Assembly: GCA_016788065.1 (NCBI GenBank)
Contig: JAEUTI010000096.1
Location: 122,065 to 186,064 of the forward strand
DNA length: 64,000 nucleotides
Direction of reading: 5' to 3'
Source: Bacteroidia bacterium
GTDB taxonomy: Bacteria; Bacteroidota; Bacteroidia; AKYH767-A; OLB10
Shown here: positions 8,170 to 14,912 of the stretch, in pieces
How the letters are laid out: each line of letters starts with the position of its first letter
Position numbering within the stretch: the first letter of the stretch is position 1
Made by a program: the position numbers and the translations under genes
The notes under the pieces: model-generated
The model's database searches: none
What the model saw: only the letters and a program-made list of their open reading frames with translations
What the model was told of the DNA's origin: nothing

Positions 8170-9018
8170 ATGAAAGTAAAGCTGCTGTTTCTCTTTTTAT
8201 TTTTACATCCGCTGCTTTCGAGTGCGCAAGGAACAACTGAAGCAGTTTCCATTTACAACAAAATGATGACTGCCATGCAACAGGTGCATTCCAGCTCATT
8301 TATTCTTGAAACAGAAGAGCGAATTTTTGGAGAAACGAAACATGCACGTTACATAGTCAAGCTGCAGGTTCATCCGTATCAGGTTTATGCCTATTCCATA
8401 ACCCCTAATCCTGGCGCCGAAGCATTATATCTCGAAGGAAAAAACAACGGGAAAATTCTGATCAACCCGAATAAATTTCCATTCATCAATCTAAGTTTAA
8501 GTCCTAACAGCATGTTACTCCGTAAAAACCATCAATACACGATGTTGCAGATGGGGTTTTCATATGTGCATGAATTGCTGGCTGCTTATCATAAAATTGA
8601 GGGTCCTGATTTTCTTAAAAGACTTAAAGATGGTGGTGATATCAATTTCCAAAACAGAAATTATCATGTCCTGGAAATTAACAATCCGGAATATGCTATT
8701 ATCAACTACAAGGTTCTTAAAGGTGAAACGGTAACATCTATTGCAAAAAAACTACACATTAACGATCATATTGTTTTGGAGTTAAATCCATCCATTGGTG
8801 ATTACAGCGATGTTGATGCCAATGAAATTATTAAAGTACCTTCAAGTTTTGCAAAAAAAATAGTATTGTATGTTGACCAGAAAACATTTCTCCCTTATGT
8901 TCAAATAACTTATGACGACAAAGGATTGTATGGCCGGGTTATTATGTCTTCATTTGTATTGAATCCTGCCTTTGGTCCACTCGACTTCTCACGCAACAAC
9001 CCTAAATACCACTTCTGA
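8170..9018 (+). CDS. Exported DUF1571 protein with an inserted LysM domain
   Basis: A 282-residue protein with an N-terminal signal peptide ending near LLSSAQG. Residues about 25-180 match the DUF1571 family (periplasmic, beta-rich, related to lipoprotein-carrier folds). At about 184-235 a LysM-type module appears, YKVLKGETVTSIAKKLHIND with a following LNPSIG, after which the DUF1571 chain resumes with KIVLYVDQKTFLPYVQITYD. LysM modules bind peptidoglycan, so the protein is probably held at the cell wall in the periplasm. The downstream rsmA start codon overlaps its stop codon (TGATG), which implies coupled expression, but no functional link is evident. Confidence 0.8.
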   Translation: MKVKLLFLFLFLHPLLSSAQGTTEAVSIYNKMMTAMQQVHSSSFILETEERIFGETKHARYIVKLQVHPYQVYAYSITPNPGAEALYLEGKNNGKILINPNKFPFINLSLSPNSMLLRKNHQYTMLQMGFSYVHELLAAYHKIEGPDFLKRLKDGGDINFQNRNYHVLEINNPEYAIINYKVLKGETVTSIAKKLHINDHIVLELNPSIGDYSDVDANEIIKVPSSFAKKIVLYVDQKTFLPYVQITYDDKGLYGRVIMSSFVLNPAFGPLDFSRNNPKYHF

Positions 9019-9806
9019 TGTCGACACCTGTAAGACCACTCAAGGCTCTTGGTCAGCACTTTTTGAACAGCCCGGAAACAGCAGCTCGCATTGCAGGGAG
9101 TTTGGTGCTCGATGACTCATTCGATACTATACTTGAAATTGGCCCCGGAACCGGAGTGCTTACATCGCTTCTGAAGTTGCATACGGATAAGAATTTTTAT
9201 TGTATCGATGTCGATCAACGGTCGGTTGAATATCTTCAGGATGCTTACCCTGATTTAAAAGGCAGAATTATTGCCGGTGACTTTCTGAATCATTCACTTG
9301 AATTTCTTGGAACCGGAAAATTTGCTGTGATAGGAAACTTCCCCTACAACATCTCCTCTCAGATTCTTTTTAGGGTACTTGAAATGTACAAAAGGGTACC
9401 AAAGGTGGTAGGGATGTTTCAGAAAGAGGTTGCTGAAAGAATTGCATCACCTGCTGGAAGCAGAGACTATGGAATTTTGAGTGTGTTATTACAGGCACAT
9501 TACGACATAGAATATCTTTTTACAGTACCACCTGAAGTATTTATTCCACCACCTAAAGTTCAATCAGGTGTTATAAGAATGACCTTAAAAGAAAATCCGG
9601 AACTCCCTTGCGACCCGGTTGTTTTTAAGCAGGTTATTAAAACCGCTTTTAATCAACGGCGGAAGACCATGAGAAATTCGTTGAAATCGATTTTACCTCT
9701 TGACACTTCAGAAGTGCCATTTTTGCAAATGAGGCCTGAGCAACTCGACTATACGCAATTTATTTTGTTGACACAGATATTACAAAGATTAAGAGAACAC
9801 TCTTAA
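9018..9806 (+). CDS. rsmA: 16S rRNA dimethyladenosine transferase
   Basis: Also called KsgA. It dimethylates two adjacent adenosines in the 3' terminal helix of 16S rRNA using S-adenosylmethionine, late in 30S assembly. The 262-residue protein shows GQHFLNSPETAARI at the N-terminus, the SAM-binding motif I EIGPGTGVLT, and the catalytic motif NFPYNISSQILF, a common variant of NLPY. The C-terminal helical domain ends with RRKTMRNSLKS and normal length. The start overlaps the previous stop codon. Its 3' end overlaps the convergent GloVer gene by 4 bp. Confidence 0.96.
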   Translation: MSTPVRPLKALGQHFLNSPETAARIAGSLVLDDSFDTILEIGPGTGVLTSLLKLHTDKNFYCIDVDQRSVEYLQDAYPDLKGRIIAGDFLNHSLEFLGTGKFAVIGNFPYNISSQILFRVLEMYKRVPKVVGMFQKEVAERIASPAGSRDYGILSVLLQAHYDIEYLFTVPPEVFIPPPKVQSGVIRMTLKENPELPCDPVVFKQVIKTAFNQRRKTMRNSLKSILPLDTSEVPFLQMRPEQLDYTQFILLTQILQRLREHS

Positions 9807-11203
9807 ATTTTCATAAATTTCTTGTAGATAATTTGACTTTCAGTTTCAATCCTGATTGTGTAGCTCCCTTTTGCCAATCCATTTACCGGCAGGCTGAAAT
9901 CAGGAGAGGCTGTCATTTTAGATGCTGAAACTAATTTTCCTTCTAAAGAAATTATACTTATGAAAAGTTGCTGTCCGTTAAACGCCGACAAGTCGACATA
10001 CAGTTCGGAAGTTACAGGATTAGGAAAAAAATTGATAGTTGATTCACTGACTAATTCATTAACTGCCAACGGTACATTAAATTCTATGAGATCTCCATCA
10101 GGGGAACCTCCGTTTGTGAATGAGCCTGAATAAAGCACATTAAAATTATTTGAAACCGGATCGAATGAAAATGTTGTTCCCAGTGAATTTGCTCCTCCAC
10201 TTGAGGCGTGTCCATAGATTTTACCGTTGGAAGCAATGATGGGTGATCCGTTTGGTGACGAGCCTGATGCAACATCAAAATCGTATAATTTCGAATAATT
10301 GTTTCCGGAAATGTCGAAACTAAAAATAACTCCTTTATTGTTCGTTCCACCTTGTTGGGTAAAGCCATAAAAAACATTGGATGATCCTGATTGAACCAGT
10401 GCTCCGTTTGGTGCTGCTCCGTTGACACCATCAAAATCATGCAGTACACTGTAATTATTGTTGGAAGGATCGAGACTGAATATAACTCCATTTCCGGTTG
10501 CACCGCCACCAAATGCCATCCCATACAAAAGTCCGTTGGTACCCTTTATCAAACTACCAAATGGTGTATATCCGGTTGCGAACAAAAAATTATGGACAAC
10601 AAAATACTGATTTGTAATAATATCATAGCTGAAAATAACACCCCCGGCAAGCGGCGAACTACCTCCATTAGTAGTCATTCCATAAATTTTATTTCCTGAT
10701 TGAACCACATTCCCGTTTGGTAAATTTCCATTGTTCAAACCAAAATCCATTATTTTATTAAACGAAATCGTCACAGGATTAAACTGAAAAAAAGTTCCCT
10801 GATTACTTAAACCTCCCTGAGATGTCATTCCATAAAAATTCCCATCATTTGCTAAAAACAGACTGGCCCGTGGATAGTATCCAACCGAATTGCTAAATGA
10901 AAATAATGTTGTATATGTATTACCGACAGGATCATATTTAAATATAGTGCCATTTGCAGACCCACCACCTGCAACAGTAAGGCCGTAAAAACTTCCATTT
11001 GGATGCAACACCAAACTACCTTGCGAAGAACCCGCACCCATGGCATGGACTACCGTAAAGTTAGATCCATCGCCATTTATTCTATAAATAGTACCTTGTC
11101 CTAACGATCCGCCTATTCGCATAATACCCCACAAAACCGGATTTTGTGCCACAGATATGAAACCCTCGAATAAAAGAACAATCAGAAATAATAGCTTTCT
11201 CAT
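9803..11203 (-). CDS. GloVer-repeat secreted protein with T9SS type A sorting domain
   Basis: A 466-residue secreted or surface protein. A signal peptide (about residues 1-19, ending SVAQ) is followed by seven units of roughly 50 residues, each built as GxIFxxDPxxNxYxxLxxF...GxxPxGxLV...xFYGMTxxGG. This is the choice-of-anchor tandem repeat (GloVer) family, and seven units suggest a seven-bladed beta-propeller. The last 75 residues, from FFPNPVTSELYVDLSAFNG to KGSYTIRIETES and a basic end KKFMKI, form a T9SS type A sorting domain. That domain directs export across the outer membrane and then cleavage. No binding target can be deduced. It is convergent with rsmA. Confidence 0.85.
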   Translation of the reverse strand: MRKLLFLIVLLFEGFISVAQNPVLWGIMRIGGSLGQGTIYRINGDGSNFTVVHAMGAGSSQGSLVLHPNGSFYGLTVAGGGSANGTIFKYDPVGNTYTTLFSFSNSVGYYPRASLFLANDGNFYGMTSQGGLSNQGTFFQFNPVTISFNKIMDFGLNNGNLPNGNVVQSGNKIYGMTTNGGSSPLAGGVIFSYDIITNQYFVVHNFLFATGYTPFGSLIKGTNGLLYGMAFGGGATGNGVIFSLDPSNNNYSVLHDFDGVNGAAPNGALVQSGSSNVFYGFTQQGGTNNKGVIFSFDISGNNYSKLYDFDVASGSSPNGSPIIASNGKIYGHASSGGANSLGTTFSFDPVSNNFNVLYSGSFTNGGSPDGDLIEFNVPLAVNELVSESTINFFPNPVTSELYVDLSAFNGQQLFISIISLEGKLVSASKMTASPDFSLPVNGLAKGSYTIRIETESQIIYKKFMKI

Positions 11204-11356: not shown

Positions 11357-11364
11357 TACTTTTG
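11357..11364 (+). promoter_or_regulatory. -7 element of the mgtE promoter
   Basis: TACTTTTG matches TAnnTTTG. The predicted transcription start, near 11371, lies just upstream of the M-box aptamer, so the whole riboswitch would be in the transcript. The -33 region (TTTAGG near 11333) is a poor match. Confidence 0.65.
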
Positions 11365-11383
11365 CAATAGTAAAAATTCACTC

Positions 11384-11548
11384 AAAGCTTGTTAGGTGAG
11401 GTTACTGAATGAAAAAAGGCTGCTGCCCGGAAATGTCGAGAGACGCCAATGGGTATAACAGGCATGGTCGGAATAAGGCTTTGCATAACGTAGCTTCCAG
11501 ATAAAATCGGGATAAGTCATTCTGAACTAAAACTCTACGAGGGGCTTT
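11384..11548 (+). ncRNA. M-box magnesium riboswitch (ykoK leader)
   Basis: The leader contains the conserved M-box blocks in order: GTTAGGTGAGG (11391-11401), GGCTGCTGCCCGGAAATGTC (from 11418), GAGAGACGCCAATGGGT, an internal AACAGGCATGG, and the 3' block ACTCTACGA (11532-11540). The outer helix P1 is AAAGC (11384-11388) with GCTTT (11544-11548). M-boxes fold when Mg2+ is plentiful and shut off downstream magnesium transporters; the gene here is mgtE, a textbook partner. About 115 nt separate the aptamer from the start codon. No intrinsic terminator with a T-tract is visible there, so the output mechanism is not obvious. Confidence 0.93.
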
Positions 11549-11662
11549 TAGAGCGAAAAGTAATTGAAAGTCGGGAATTCCCTCATTGCAGGAATTACAT
11601 GCCCCACCCACTTTTAATTCCATATTTCGTCATGAAAGCCATGTAATAAGGTTGCTGCGAAA
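11541..11662 (+). promoter_or_regulatory. Putative expression platform of the M-box leader
   Basis: GGGGC (11541-11545), which overlaps the 3' strand of P1, can pair with GCCCC (11601-11605). GGAATT (11591-11596) can pair either with AATTCC upstream (11576-11581) or with AATTCC downstream (11616-11621). These mutually exclusive helices are what a switch would need. A five-codon frame ATG-AAA-GCC-ATG-TAA (11632-11646) ends 16 bp before mgtE. Confidence 0.45.
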
Positions 11663-13042
11663 ATGGAGTTCGAAACCATCAAATCTGATATTCAGGCGTT
11701 ACTGGAAACCCGCAATATGCAGGGCTTAAAAGTATTGTTGGAAGAATGGCTTCCGGAGGAGATTTCTTTGCTCTGCGAAAGCCTTAATCTGGAAGATCAG
11801 ATCAAAGTTTTTCAATGTATCGATCGCGACCGGGCCTTCCTAACTTTCGAAAATTTAGACATTAACGATCAGAAACTTTTAGTAGATGCACTGCCAAACC
11901 GTTTGGTAGCACTCATTCTGAATGATATGTCGGCTGACAACCGGACTGCTCTCCTGGAAGAACTGGAGTCGGAACAGCTGAATAAACTTTTGAAGCTGCT
12001 AACTAAAAAGGAACGCAAAATTGCCCTTTCACTTTTAGGATACCCCGAGAATTCCATTGGTCGATTAATGACCCCGGAGTATATGACGGTGCGGCAAAGC
12101 TGGACCATCCGGGAAGTTTTGGAATACATCCGTGAGAATGGGGAAAGCAGTGAAACGCTGGATATCATTTACATCGTAGATGAAAAAGGATACCTGATTG
12201 ATGACATCAAAATAGGTGAATTCCTGTTGGCTCCGCTCGATGAAAAGGTAAGCGAGCTCATGGATGGCAAAAAAGTTTCGTTGTTGGTAACTGATGATGA
12301 AGAAGTAGCTATCAATGTGTTTACCGAATTCAACAGAGTAGCCTTACCGGTTACCGATTCTCATGGCATATTATTAGGAATTGTAACGATCGACGACGTA
12401 CTCGAACTTGCTAAAAAAGAAGATACCGAAGATATTCAAAAACTGGGAGGGGTTGAAGCTTTCGAAGAACCCTACATGGAAATGCCGGTTTTTAAAATGA
12501 TTGGTAAAAGAGCACCCTGGCTTATCATCCTTTTTCTTGGAGAATTACTGACAGCTTCCGCAATGGCCTACTTTGAACATGAAATTGCACGGGCTGTGGT
12601 ATTGGCCTTATTCATACCACTCATTGTTTCCAGTGGCGGTAATTCCGGATCTCAGGCTGCAACACTCATCATTCGTGCGATGGCATTGGGTGAAGTCACT
12701 ATTTCCGACTGGTATCGGATTATGAGACGGGAGATTGTCTCCGGACTTGTTCTGGGACTACTTTTGGGTGTGCTTGGTTTCACCAGAGTAGCAGCATGGT
12801 CGATGTTTACCGACGTTTATGGGCCGCACTGGATGGCAATTGCCTTAACTATAGGATTTTCACTCACGGGCGTTGTCCTTTGGGGTAGCTTGATGGGATC
12901 AATGCTGCCATTGTTATTAAAGCGTTTAGGTGCCGACCCTGCAACTTCTTCAGCACCGTTTATTGCAACATTGGTTGATGTAACCGGATTATTAATTTAT
13001 TTCTCATTAGCCGCGCTGATACTTTCCGGAACACTACTTTAG
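11663..13042 (+). CDS. mgtE: Magnesium transporter MgtE
   Basis: Inner-membrane Mg2+ channel of 459 residues. It has an N-terminal superhelical MgtE_N domain (about 1-125), a pair of CBS domains (about 130-255, including IGRLMTPEYMTVRQSWTIRE) that sense cytosolic Mg2+, and five membrane helices (about 275-459). The conserved pore-region segment SGGNSGSQAATLIIRAMALGE lies in the membrane domain. Length is typical. Expression is placed under an M-box riboswitch in the 290-nt leader, giving mRNA-level Mg2+ control in addition to CBS gating. A 2-hydroxyacid dehydrogenase gene follows 4 bp downstream and is probably co-transcribed. Confidence 0.96.
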   Translation: MEFETIKSDIQALLETRNMQGLKVLLEEWLPEEISLLCESLNLEDQIKVFQCIDRDRAFLTFENLDINDQKLLVDALPNRLVALILNDMSADNRTALLEELESEQLNKLLKLLTKKERKIALSLLGYPENSIGRLMTPEYMTVRQSWTIREVLEYIRENGESSETLDIIYIVDEKGYLIDDIKIGEFLLAPLDEKVSELMDGKKVSLLVTDDEEVAINVFTEFNRVALPVTDSHGILLGIVTIDDVLELAKKEDTEDIQKLGGVEAFEEPYMEMPVFKMIGKRAPWLIILFLGELLTASAMAYFEHEIARAVVLALFIPLIVSSGGNSGSQAATLIIRAMALGEVTISDWYRIMRREIVSGLVLGLLLGVLGFTRVAAWSMFTDVYGPHWMAIALTIGFSLTGVVLWGSLMGSMLPLLLKRLGADPATSSAPFIATLVDVTGLLIYFSLAALILSGTLL

Positions 13043-13046
13043 CAGG

Positions 13047-13997
13047 ATGAAAGGAAGCATATTATTTATAGATTCAGTACATCAAATTTTACAGGATCGC
13101 CTGGAGTCTTCCGGATGGAAATGTATTAATGGTACACAACTTTCCAGATCGCAAATTCTGGAAACTATTCCTGCTTATTCCGGCATTGTGATTCGCAGCC
13201 GCATCAAAATTGATTCTGAATTTCTGGATCATGCAACTCATTTAAAATTTATTGCCCGTGCCGGAGCCGGAATGGAAAATATTGATGTAGTTAAAGCAAA
13301 TGAATTAAAAATCGTTTGCATTAACGCACCGGAAGGAAACAGAAATGCAGTAGCAGAACATGCAATGGGAATGTTATTGGCATTACTTAACAAACTCATA
13401 ACTGCCGATCAGGAAGTAAGAAATGGCATTTGGAAGAGAGAAGAAAACAGAGGCATTGAAATCGAAGGCAAACGGGTAACCATCATTGGATTTGGAAATA
13501 CAGGAAGTAGTTTTGCCAGGAAGCTGGCAGGTTTCAACTGTGAAATTCAGGCGGTGGATCCCTATATTGAAATTGATCGTAAAATTTTTCCGGGAGTGCG
13601 ACAAATAACATTAACAGAAGCCATGTCAAATAGCGACATTGTTTCATTACATGTTCCATTGACCGCCGAAACAGAACACCTGGTAAATCTCGATTTTATA
13701 TCTAAATTTAAAAGTCCTTTTTATCTTATTAATACTTCGCGTGGAGCTGTTGTTTCCTTAAAAGCTCTGGTAACAGGTTTGCAATCGGGAAATGTTGCAG
13801 GAGCAGCGTTGGATGTACTGGAACTGGAAAGTTCTTCATTTGAGAAAATTGAAAGCAACCATTCATCAGATGCTTTTCAGAGTTTGATAAAACTGCCAAA
13901 TGTTGTTTTGAGTCCCCATGTAGCGGGATGGAGTGTTGAATCACACCGAAAAATTTCGGAAGTGCTTGCGGATAAAATTCTGATTGAAAAATTTTAA
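13047..13997 (+). CDS. D-isomer-specific 2-hydroxyacid dehydrogenase (SerA-like)
   Basis: NAD-dependent dehydrogenase of 316 residues in the D-3-phosphoglycerate dehydrogenase/2-hydroxyacid dehydrogenase family. The Rossmann motif is IGFGNTGSSFARKL. The catalytic set is present: Arg in NTSRGAVV, Glu in ALDVLELES and His in SPHVAGWSVESH. There is no C-terminal ACT domain, so it is the short form. Its substrate could be 3-phosphoglycerate or another 2-hydroxyacid and cannot be decided here. It starts 4 bp after mgtE and so lies within the magnesium-regulated transcript. A bidirectional terminator separates it from rpoD. Confidence 0.88.
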   Translation: MKGSILFIDSVHQILQDRLESSGWKCINGTQLSRSQILETIPAYSGIVIRSRIKIDSEFLDHATHLKFIARAGAGMENIDVVKANELKIVCINAPEGNRNAVAEHAMGMLLALLNKLITADQEVRNGIWKREENRGIEIEGKRVTIIGFGNTGSSFARKLAGFNCEIQAVDPYIEIDRKIFPGVRQITLTEAMSNSDIVSLHVPLTAETEHLVNLDFISKFKSPFYLINTSRGAVVSLKALVTGLQSGNVAGAALDVLELESSSFEKIESNHSSDAFQSLIKLPNVVLSPHVAGWSVESHRKISEVLADKILIEKF

Positions 13998-14004
13998 GAT
14001 AAAA

Positions 14005-14036
14005 ATAAAAAAGCCCCGGTTATACCAGGGCTTTTT
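14005..14036. terminator. Bidirectional terminator between the dehydrogenase and rpoD
   Basis: Stem AAAAAGCCC-C-GG / CC-A-GGGCTTTTT with one C/A mismatch and a five-base loop, A-run on the left and T-run on the right. It serves both convergent genes. Confidence 0.85.
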
Positions 14037-14045
14037 ATTGAAATA

Positions 14046-14912
14046 CTATTCGAAGTATGTTCTCAGTAATTTACTTCTGGAATTATGGCGAAGGCGCTTT
14101 ATTCCATTGTCCTTAATCTGACGAACCCTTTCTCTTGTCATTTCTAGTTTCATACTGATTTCCTCAAGGGTATGAGCACGTTGGTGACCAATTCCGTAGA
14201 ACAATTTCAGTACATCACTTTCTTTAGGAGGAAGTGTATTCAAAGAGCGAATGATGTCCTGTTGCATGGATTCGGCGATCATTTCGGTATCGGCAGAAGG
14301 TGAATTGGGATTCGATAAAACATCGAGCAAATTGCTTTGATCATCTTTGCTATCGAAAGGTGCATCAACGGAAACCGCTCTTCCGGAAACCCCTAAAGTA
14401 TCAGATACCTGATCCTCAGACATTTCCAAAATTTGTGACAATTCCTCAGCACTTGGTTCACGTTCGTATTTCTGCTCTAACTGCACAAAAGCCTTTTTAA
14501 TTTTATTCAGCGCACCCAATTTATTGAGGGGTAATCTGACAATTCTGGCTTGTTCTGCCAAAGCTTGCAAAATTGACTGACGGATCCACCAAACGGCATA
14601 TGAAATAAACTTGAATCCTTTGGTTTCATCGAACTTCTTTGCTGCTTTAATCAAACCAAGATTACCTTCGTTGATTAAGTCAAGAAGGCTAAGACCTTGA
14701 TTTTGATACTGCTTAGCAACAGAAACCACGAATCTTAAATTGGCTCTGACTAATTTATCGAGGGCAGCAGCATCCCCCTGCCTGATTTTCTGGGCAAGAA
14801 TTGGTTCCATTGAAGGCGCAATCATCTCTTCTTTGCCAATTTCCTGCAGATACTTCTCAAGCGAAGCACTGTCACGGTTGGTAATGGAAGGGGTAATTTT
14901 TAGCTGTCTCAT
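14046..14912 (-). CDS. rpoD: Primary sigma factor RpoD/SigA (short Bacteroidota form)
   Basis: Housekeeping RNA polymerase sigma factor of 288 residues. Region 1.1 is absent, as in Bacteroidota primary sigmas. Region 1.2 starts near [15 protein letters not shown]. Region 2 (about 54-117) contains [20 protein letters not shown] and the -10 recognition helix [14 protein letters not shown]. Region 4 ends with [18 protein letters not shown]-like residues (written here as [20 protein letters not shown]). This form recognises the TTG / TAnnTTTG promoters seen repeatedly in the window. It is convergent with the dehydrogenase. I found no consensus promoter directly upstream. Confidence 0.96.

Follow-up and report, generated by a model that had tools for sequence, protein, structure and literature searches.

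At the locus described here, which lies in a 64,000-nucleotide stretch of Bacteroidia DNA (the window), an M-box aptamer precedes the magnesium transporter gene mgtE; the features of the leader and of the genes that follow it are collected in Table 1. The original prediction, made from the sequence alone, had placed an M-box behind a good promoter and in front of mgtE in a Bacteroidota genome. The genome does belong to this phylum, and the gene is identified as mgtE by its Pfam domains. The promoter was likewise recovered, as a box identified by the motif TAnnTTTG, which we take to be the Bacteroidota-type promoter consensus; a match to this motif lies 29–35 nt 5′ of GTTAGG in all nine Bacteroidia leaders compared (those of the window, of its sister species G029 and of L003–L009), and the transcript would start at about 11369–11372. 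A scan for sigma-70 sites, of a type that excludes Bacteroidota-type promoters, returned none upstream of the aptamer.

Table 1. Features of the mgtE leader and of the genes downstream (window coordinates)
Feature	Position	Strand	Basis or remark
Bacteroidota-type −7 promoter box, TAnnTTTG	11357–11364	+	Match to the motif 29–35 nt 5′ of GTTAGG in nine of nine Bacteroidia leaders
M-box (ykoK) Mg2+ aptamer	11381–11551	+	RF00380, 141 bits, full model
P1, 5′ strand	11384–11390	+	Partner 11542–11548; Rfam alignment gives 11385–11390/11542–11547
P1, 3′ strand	11542–11548	+	Doubles as part of the predicted anti-sequestor helix
Anti-anti-TIR (predicted)	11543–11558	+	Free-P1 fold, MFE and centroid
Platform stem-loop (predicted)	11562–11619	+	In the computed folds of both states
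Anti-TIR (predicted)	11619–11640	+	11619–11629 covers the mgtE start; 11625–11640 pairs with the P1-strand region
Short ORF, MKAM (MKAIY in the sister species)	11632–11646	+	Absent from the other leaders
mgtE translation start region (TIR), AUG 11663–11665	11657–11667	+	Predicted closed when P1 is formed
mgtE, Mg2+ transporter, 459 aa	11663–13042	+	Pfam MgtE_N, CBS, MgtE
2-Hydroxyacid dehydrogenase (SerA-like)	13047–13997	+	Pfam 2-Hacid_dh, 2-Hacid_dh_C; 4 nt 3′ of mgtE

The SerA-like gene is likely part of the mgtE operon, and the end of the convergent gene beyond it is marked by an opposite-strand terminator (14036–14008). A homologue of the SerA-like gene occurs at 15 of the 23 mgtE loci of the window's family and at five of the eight M-box loci. 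Several weak Rfam matches on the minus strand at 13971–14073 (BSnc120, SpF25 and others), below their gathering scores and all situated on an intrinsic terminator, are chance matches to its hairpin. Upstream, a minus-strand gene for a protein with a Por_Secre_tail sorting domain (9803–11203) lies between the M-box and a ksgA-like gene (9018–9806, the name being assigned from its sequence); in the relative G030, a ksgA-like gene and mgtE are seemingly adjacent, and no M-box is present. The short ORF within the leader is probably incidental. A conserved leader peptide, as in Mycobacterium tuberculosis, was considered and rejected, as the nine leaders share no ORF peptide and two of them have no ATG ORF at all.

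The aptamer itself is a genuine M-box of the known kind. The covariance search proposed along with the original prediction returned a match to the full length of RF00380 (model positions 1–169 of 169; 141 bits against a gathering cut-off of 44 bits, E = 8e-33), and a search of the whole 4.26-Mb genome found this match alone (E = 1.4e-33). In keeping with a family of leaders of Mg2+ transport genes, mgtE is the next gene in all nine Bacteroidia leaders, and the predicted aptamer may be expected to bind Mg2+. Its closing helix, P1, contains a seventh pair (11384–11548) that comes from reading the sequence; the six others were used in the folding check.

The mgtE start lies 112 nt 3′ of the aptamer, with the platform in between. 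Folding calculations suggest three competing parts, namely the 3′ strand of P1 together with GCGAAA (11543–11558), the segment CCATATTTCGTCATGAAAGCC (11620–11640) and the mgtE start region. In the fold in which the P1 strand is free, GGCUUUUA (11543–11550) pairs with 11633–11640 and GCGAAA (11553–11558) with 11625–11630, around the long platform stem, and one such fold adds two outer pairs to this helix. When the P1 strand is omitted, the centroid instead pairs 11619–11623 and 11625–11629 with 11658–11667, that is, across the mgtE AUG. The platform stem is made up of 11562–11571 and 11573–11575 paired with 11607–11619, with a hairpin at 11576–11581/11591–11596. For the whole leader, the unconstrained ensemble has a free energy of −92.0 kcal/mol and leaves the start region with a mean unpaired probability of 0.47–0.48; with P1 enforced these values become −86.8 kcal/mol and 0.04, and adding the sequestor pairs then costs next to nothing. 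The difference of 5.2 kcal/mol, computed with an energy model that leaves out Mg2+, tertiary contacts and co-transcriptional folding, is the cost that Mg2+ binding would have to cover, and presumably does. The downstream segments are not unusually stable as such (z = −1.57 and −0.57).

The competing helices named in the original prediction were different ones. Their letters are all present (GGGGC at 11541–11545, GCCCC at 11601–11605, GGAATT at 11591–11596 and AATTCC at both 11576–11581 and 11616–11621), but a switching role did not hold up for either pair. GCCCC is left unused in the predicted fold of the window and is replaced by ACTAC in the sister species. The AATTCC/GGAATT repeat is conserved, but its hairpin is common to the two computed states, which makes it unlikely to be the switch.

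The comparison with G029 bears on the three predicted elements as well. The two species differ at none of 167 nt of the aptamer, at 13 of 113 nt of the platform and at 73 of 1377 nt of mgtE. The 13 platform differences (11561–11562, 11571–11572, 11584, 11598–11601, 11603–11604, 11643 and 11646) fall in loops or linkers, or leave a stem intact through a U–G pair or a shifted bulge, and none falls within the three switching elements, which occupy 37 of the 113 nt. By our own arithmetic, random placement would give this outcome with a chance of about 0.004, a figure that is in truth weaker because the differences are clustered and the elements were picked afterwards. As the elements are invariant between the two species, they provide no covariation for or against the helices.

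Whether such a change at the start codon could arise by chance was judged from shuffles of the platform alone, the aptamer and the start region being retained. The shift in accessibility seen in the window was equalled by seven of 700 shuffles, and two of the 700 were as closed as the window with P1 enforced; when the three bases of the AUG were considered alone, 44 of 700 reached the shift of the window. With 60 shuffles for each leader, the native shift was reached by none for the window, G029 and L008 and by two for L006, as against 8 for L005, 21 for L007, 32 for L004, 38 for L003 and 46 for L009. With P1 enforced, L003 shifts in the wrong direction, and the shifts of L004, L005, L007 and L009 are small. 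The mean shift over the nine leaders was reached by none of 60 shuffles, again by none when G029 was left out, and by three when the window and G029 were both left out. A simpler model, restricted to the segment from the 3′ tail of the aptamer onward, gives weaker support that depends on the start window chosen. From −25 to +13 the leader of the window shifts the wrong way and 50 of 100 shuffles reach the nine-leader mean, whereas from −10 to +5 the value of the window is reached by 10 of 150 shuffles and the nine-leader mean by about 1.3% of 150, or 8% without the sister species. According to these models, the clear effect is confined to two closely related species, the window and G029, with a mixed picture in the other seven; the case for start sequestration thus appears fair for the genus of the window and suggestive for L006 and L008, the shifts elsewhere being small or reversed.

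These features are best accommodated, at a probability of roughly 0.6, by an M-box that acts as an off switch at high Mg2+ and blocks translation of mgtE by burying a start region that has no Shine–Dalgarno (SD) site. At low Mg2+, P1 would be open and 11543–11558 would pair with 11625–11640, so that the anti-start sequence would be occupied and the mgtE start region partly exposed. At high Mg2+, the folded aptamer would let P1 reclaim 11542–11548, and the released 11619–11629 would then pair with 11658–11667, so that the AUG would be covered together with the A-rich bases before it. The untranslated mgtE mRNA might in turn be terminated by Rho farther downstream. Of this scheme, the calculations establish the aptamer match, the lack of a terminator, the mutually exclusive helices and their rarity among shuffles; the direction of control and the translational step we infer, with Rho possibly taking a share. 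Published work in the phylum is consistent with such a mechanism. Bacteroidetes mRNAs are reported to have no SD sites, initiation in Flavobacterium being tuned by structure and by an A at −3 (PMC6847099), and the mgtE of the window has an A at this position. In work on Prevotella bryantii, protein is reported to drop to 0.12 and mRNA to 0.72 with a −5.2 kcal/mol structure at the start, and protein to 0.007 at unchanged mRNA with one of −11.1 kcal/mol, whereas Escherichia coli tolerates the −5.2 kcal/mol structure (PMC3155529). For ribosomes that do without SD pairing and need an unstructured start, burial of the start should therefore suffice to shut off mgtE.

The original prediction had named translational or Rho-type control without choosing between them, and the translational alternative now appears the likelier, Rho alone being unfavoured. 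A Rho-dependent switch, in which formation of P1 would expose a Rho-loading site in the platform and transcription would end before mgtE, any effect on translation being secondary, is unlikely, although it has some points in its favour: the genome encodes Rho, C/G reaches 2.00, with 14 YC steps, in the most favourable 78 nt of the leader, and Rho-dependent ends are reported close to the aptamer in the pe20 M-box of M. tuberculosis (PMC12810186). However, a C/G of 2.00 is reached by 374 of 1316 stretches of the same length in the window, and the platform as a whole, with a ratio of 1.09 where the median for the window is 1.00, is equalled by 40% of window stretches of its size; judged by C/G, a Rho-loading site is not distinctive there. 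GCCCC, besides being lost in the sister species, is looped in both computed states and is therefore not switched.

Control by transcriptional attenuation, through an unusual terminator or a pause hairpin that the scans overlooked, is less probable still. As originally claimed, no stem followed by a T run was found between the aptamer and mgtE in either of two terminator scans, and the window thus differs from M-boxes of the terminator (Bacillus) type. The same scan detected a terminator 3′ of 31 of 37 non-Bacteroidota M-boxes (a control set of 39 loci, of which L053 and L055 were too short to scan) and in both other members of the phylum (L021 and L057), but in only one of the nine Bacteroidia leaders, where the candidate, in L005, is weak; these counts include related species and are hence not independent. 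The six controls that the scan overlooked, the L005 candidate and the prevalence of terminators elsewhere leave some room for attenuation, and the empty intervals of the window and the other leaders, eight of nine in all, speak against it. False positives arose in 6 of 900 shuffles of Bacteroidia platforms. Although the scan covered 300 nt in each control but 163–208 nt in the Bacteroidia leaders, every control match listed begins within the first 97 nt, and the scan length is thus not the cause of the difference. Comparably improbable is a relict aptamer that has ceased to switch and whose platform decayed after loss of the terminator, as might be suggested by the patchy occurrence of the M-box (8 of 24 genomes of the family, relatives retaining mgtE without it) and by a platform that varies in length and sequence among genera, since all nine aptamers score 128–142 bits and that of the window is identical to that of G029 despite the changes in platform and mgtE.

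The M-box is rare in the class Bacteroidia. In the order of the window it was found in 8 of 42 genomes, all of them in the window's own family (f1), in which 22 of the 24 genomes have an mgtE match. The larger samples, searched with stricter filters through which weak matches can be lost, gave five of 395 Bacteroidia genomes (four belonging to f1, the fifth being G070 of family f34, in whose order one of three genomes has an M-box) and two of 395 genomes across the phylum, one being that of the window. A pattern scan of 84,980 named species, with a pattern derived from these leaders that would miss divergent M-boxes, yielded 47 stretches, eight of them titled Bacteroidota or classes within it; seven of these were taken as the contigs L002–L008, and the eighth is L021.

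In a tree of 51 MgtE proteins, the MgtE of the window is placed within those of Bacteroidia, and carriers and non-carriers of the M-box from its family are intermingled, so that the leader has seemingly been gained or lost independently of the gene, gains being indistinguishable from losses in this tree. An arrival of mgtE and riboswitch together from Bacillota is unsupported, as the gene groups with Bacteroidia, including the relatives that have no M-box. The M-box of L009 (family f34) precedes an MgtE that is 31% identical to that of the window and belongs to a different lineage, on a long branch of unsure placement; M-box leaders in Bacteroidia thus appear, from the protein sequences, to stand before two separate MgtE lineages. 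Outside f1, the M-boxes L057 1511–3055 and L021 1684–3684 are followed by classical terminators and by genes unlike mgtE, with products of 433 aa and 585 aa, respectively. A Pfam search with the N-terminal pieces of these two genes returned no family; they are possibly new Mg2+-regulated genes.

To our knowledge, riboswitch gene control in Bacteroidota is little worked out, because the sites at which translational switches usually act, the SD sites, are absent. If the proposed mechanism is true, a single phylum would offer one aptamer in two settings for comparison, coupled to a terminator in L021 and L057 and to sequestration of the start codon in the window and G029, and the leader would lend itself to testing as a compact module for Mg2+-dependent expression. 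As to distribution, the leader appears to be an element independently gained or lost before a resident mgtE. A tentative extension, to which we give somewhat less than even odds, is that the Bacteroidia M-box lost its terminator and was rewired, possibly more than once (in f1 and separately in f34), to SD-free burial of the start codon. On that reading, translational M-boxes would have a second lineage in Bacteroidia, and one that could serve as a model for ligand-gated translation in a phylum whose ribosomes ignore SD sites.

Earlier records of this riboswitch in the phylum are sparse: a 2007 survey lists a single YKOK element, apparently in its Bacteroidetes/Chlorobi column (PMC2211319), the titles and abstract openings returned by literature searches disclosed no M-box mechanism in Bacteroidota, and the excerpts of PMC3766115, PMC11089507, PMC12121620, PMC2258182 and PMC7366714 contain nothing on one. 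With the mgtE/ykoK M-box of Bacillus subtilis, the window shares a full-length aptamer, the mgtE gene and a P1 that competes with a downstream helix; unlike it, the leader of the window has no intrinsic terminator, and its predicted competing helices extend to the mgtE start codon. The L057 and L021 M-boxes, whose aptamer cores are near-identical to that of the window, differ from it in having a classical terminator and in being followed by genes that do not resemble mgtE. Another parallel is the pe20 M-box of M. tuberculosis, the first translational M-box according to its authors (PMC12810186, RNA 2026), which likewise is described as having no terminator, an anti-anti-TIR, anti-TIR and TIR in this order and a possible link to Rho; for the window, the corresponding mutually exclusive helices, linked to the aptamer through a P1 strand, are predicted from folding. 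The pe20 M-box is reported to use SD sites and to control a conserved small upstream ORF (PMC12810186), whereas the leader of the window has neither an SD site nor an ORF shared among leaders, a conserved upstream ORF with its own SD being absent, and its target is mgtE itself. If the predicted folds are confirmed, the platform would be a new variant of a translational mode for which an example from another phylum is already in print.
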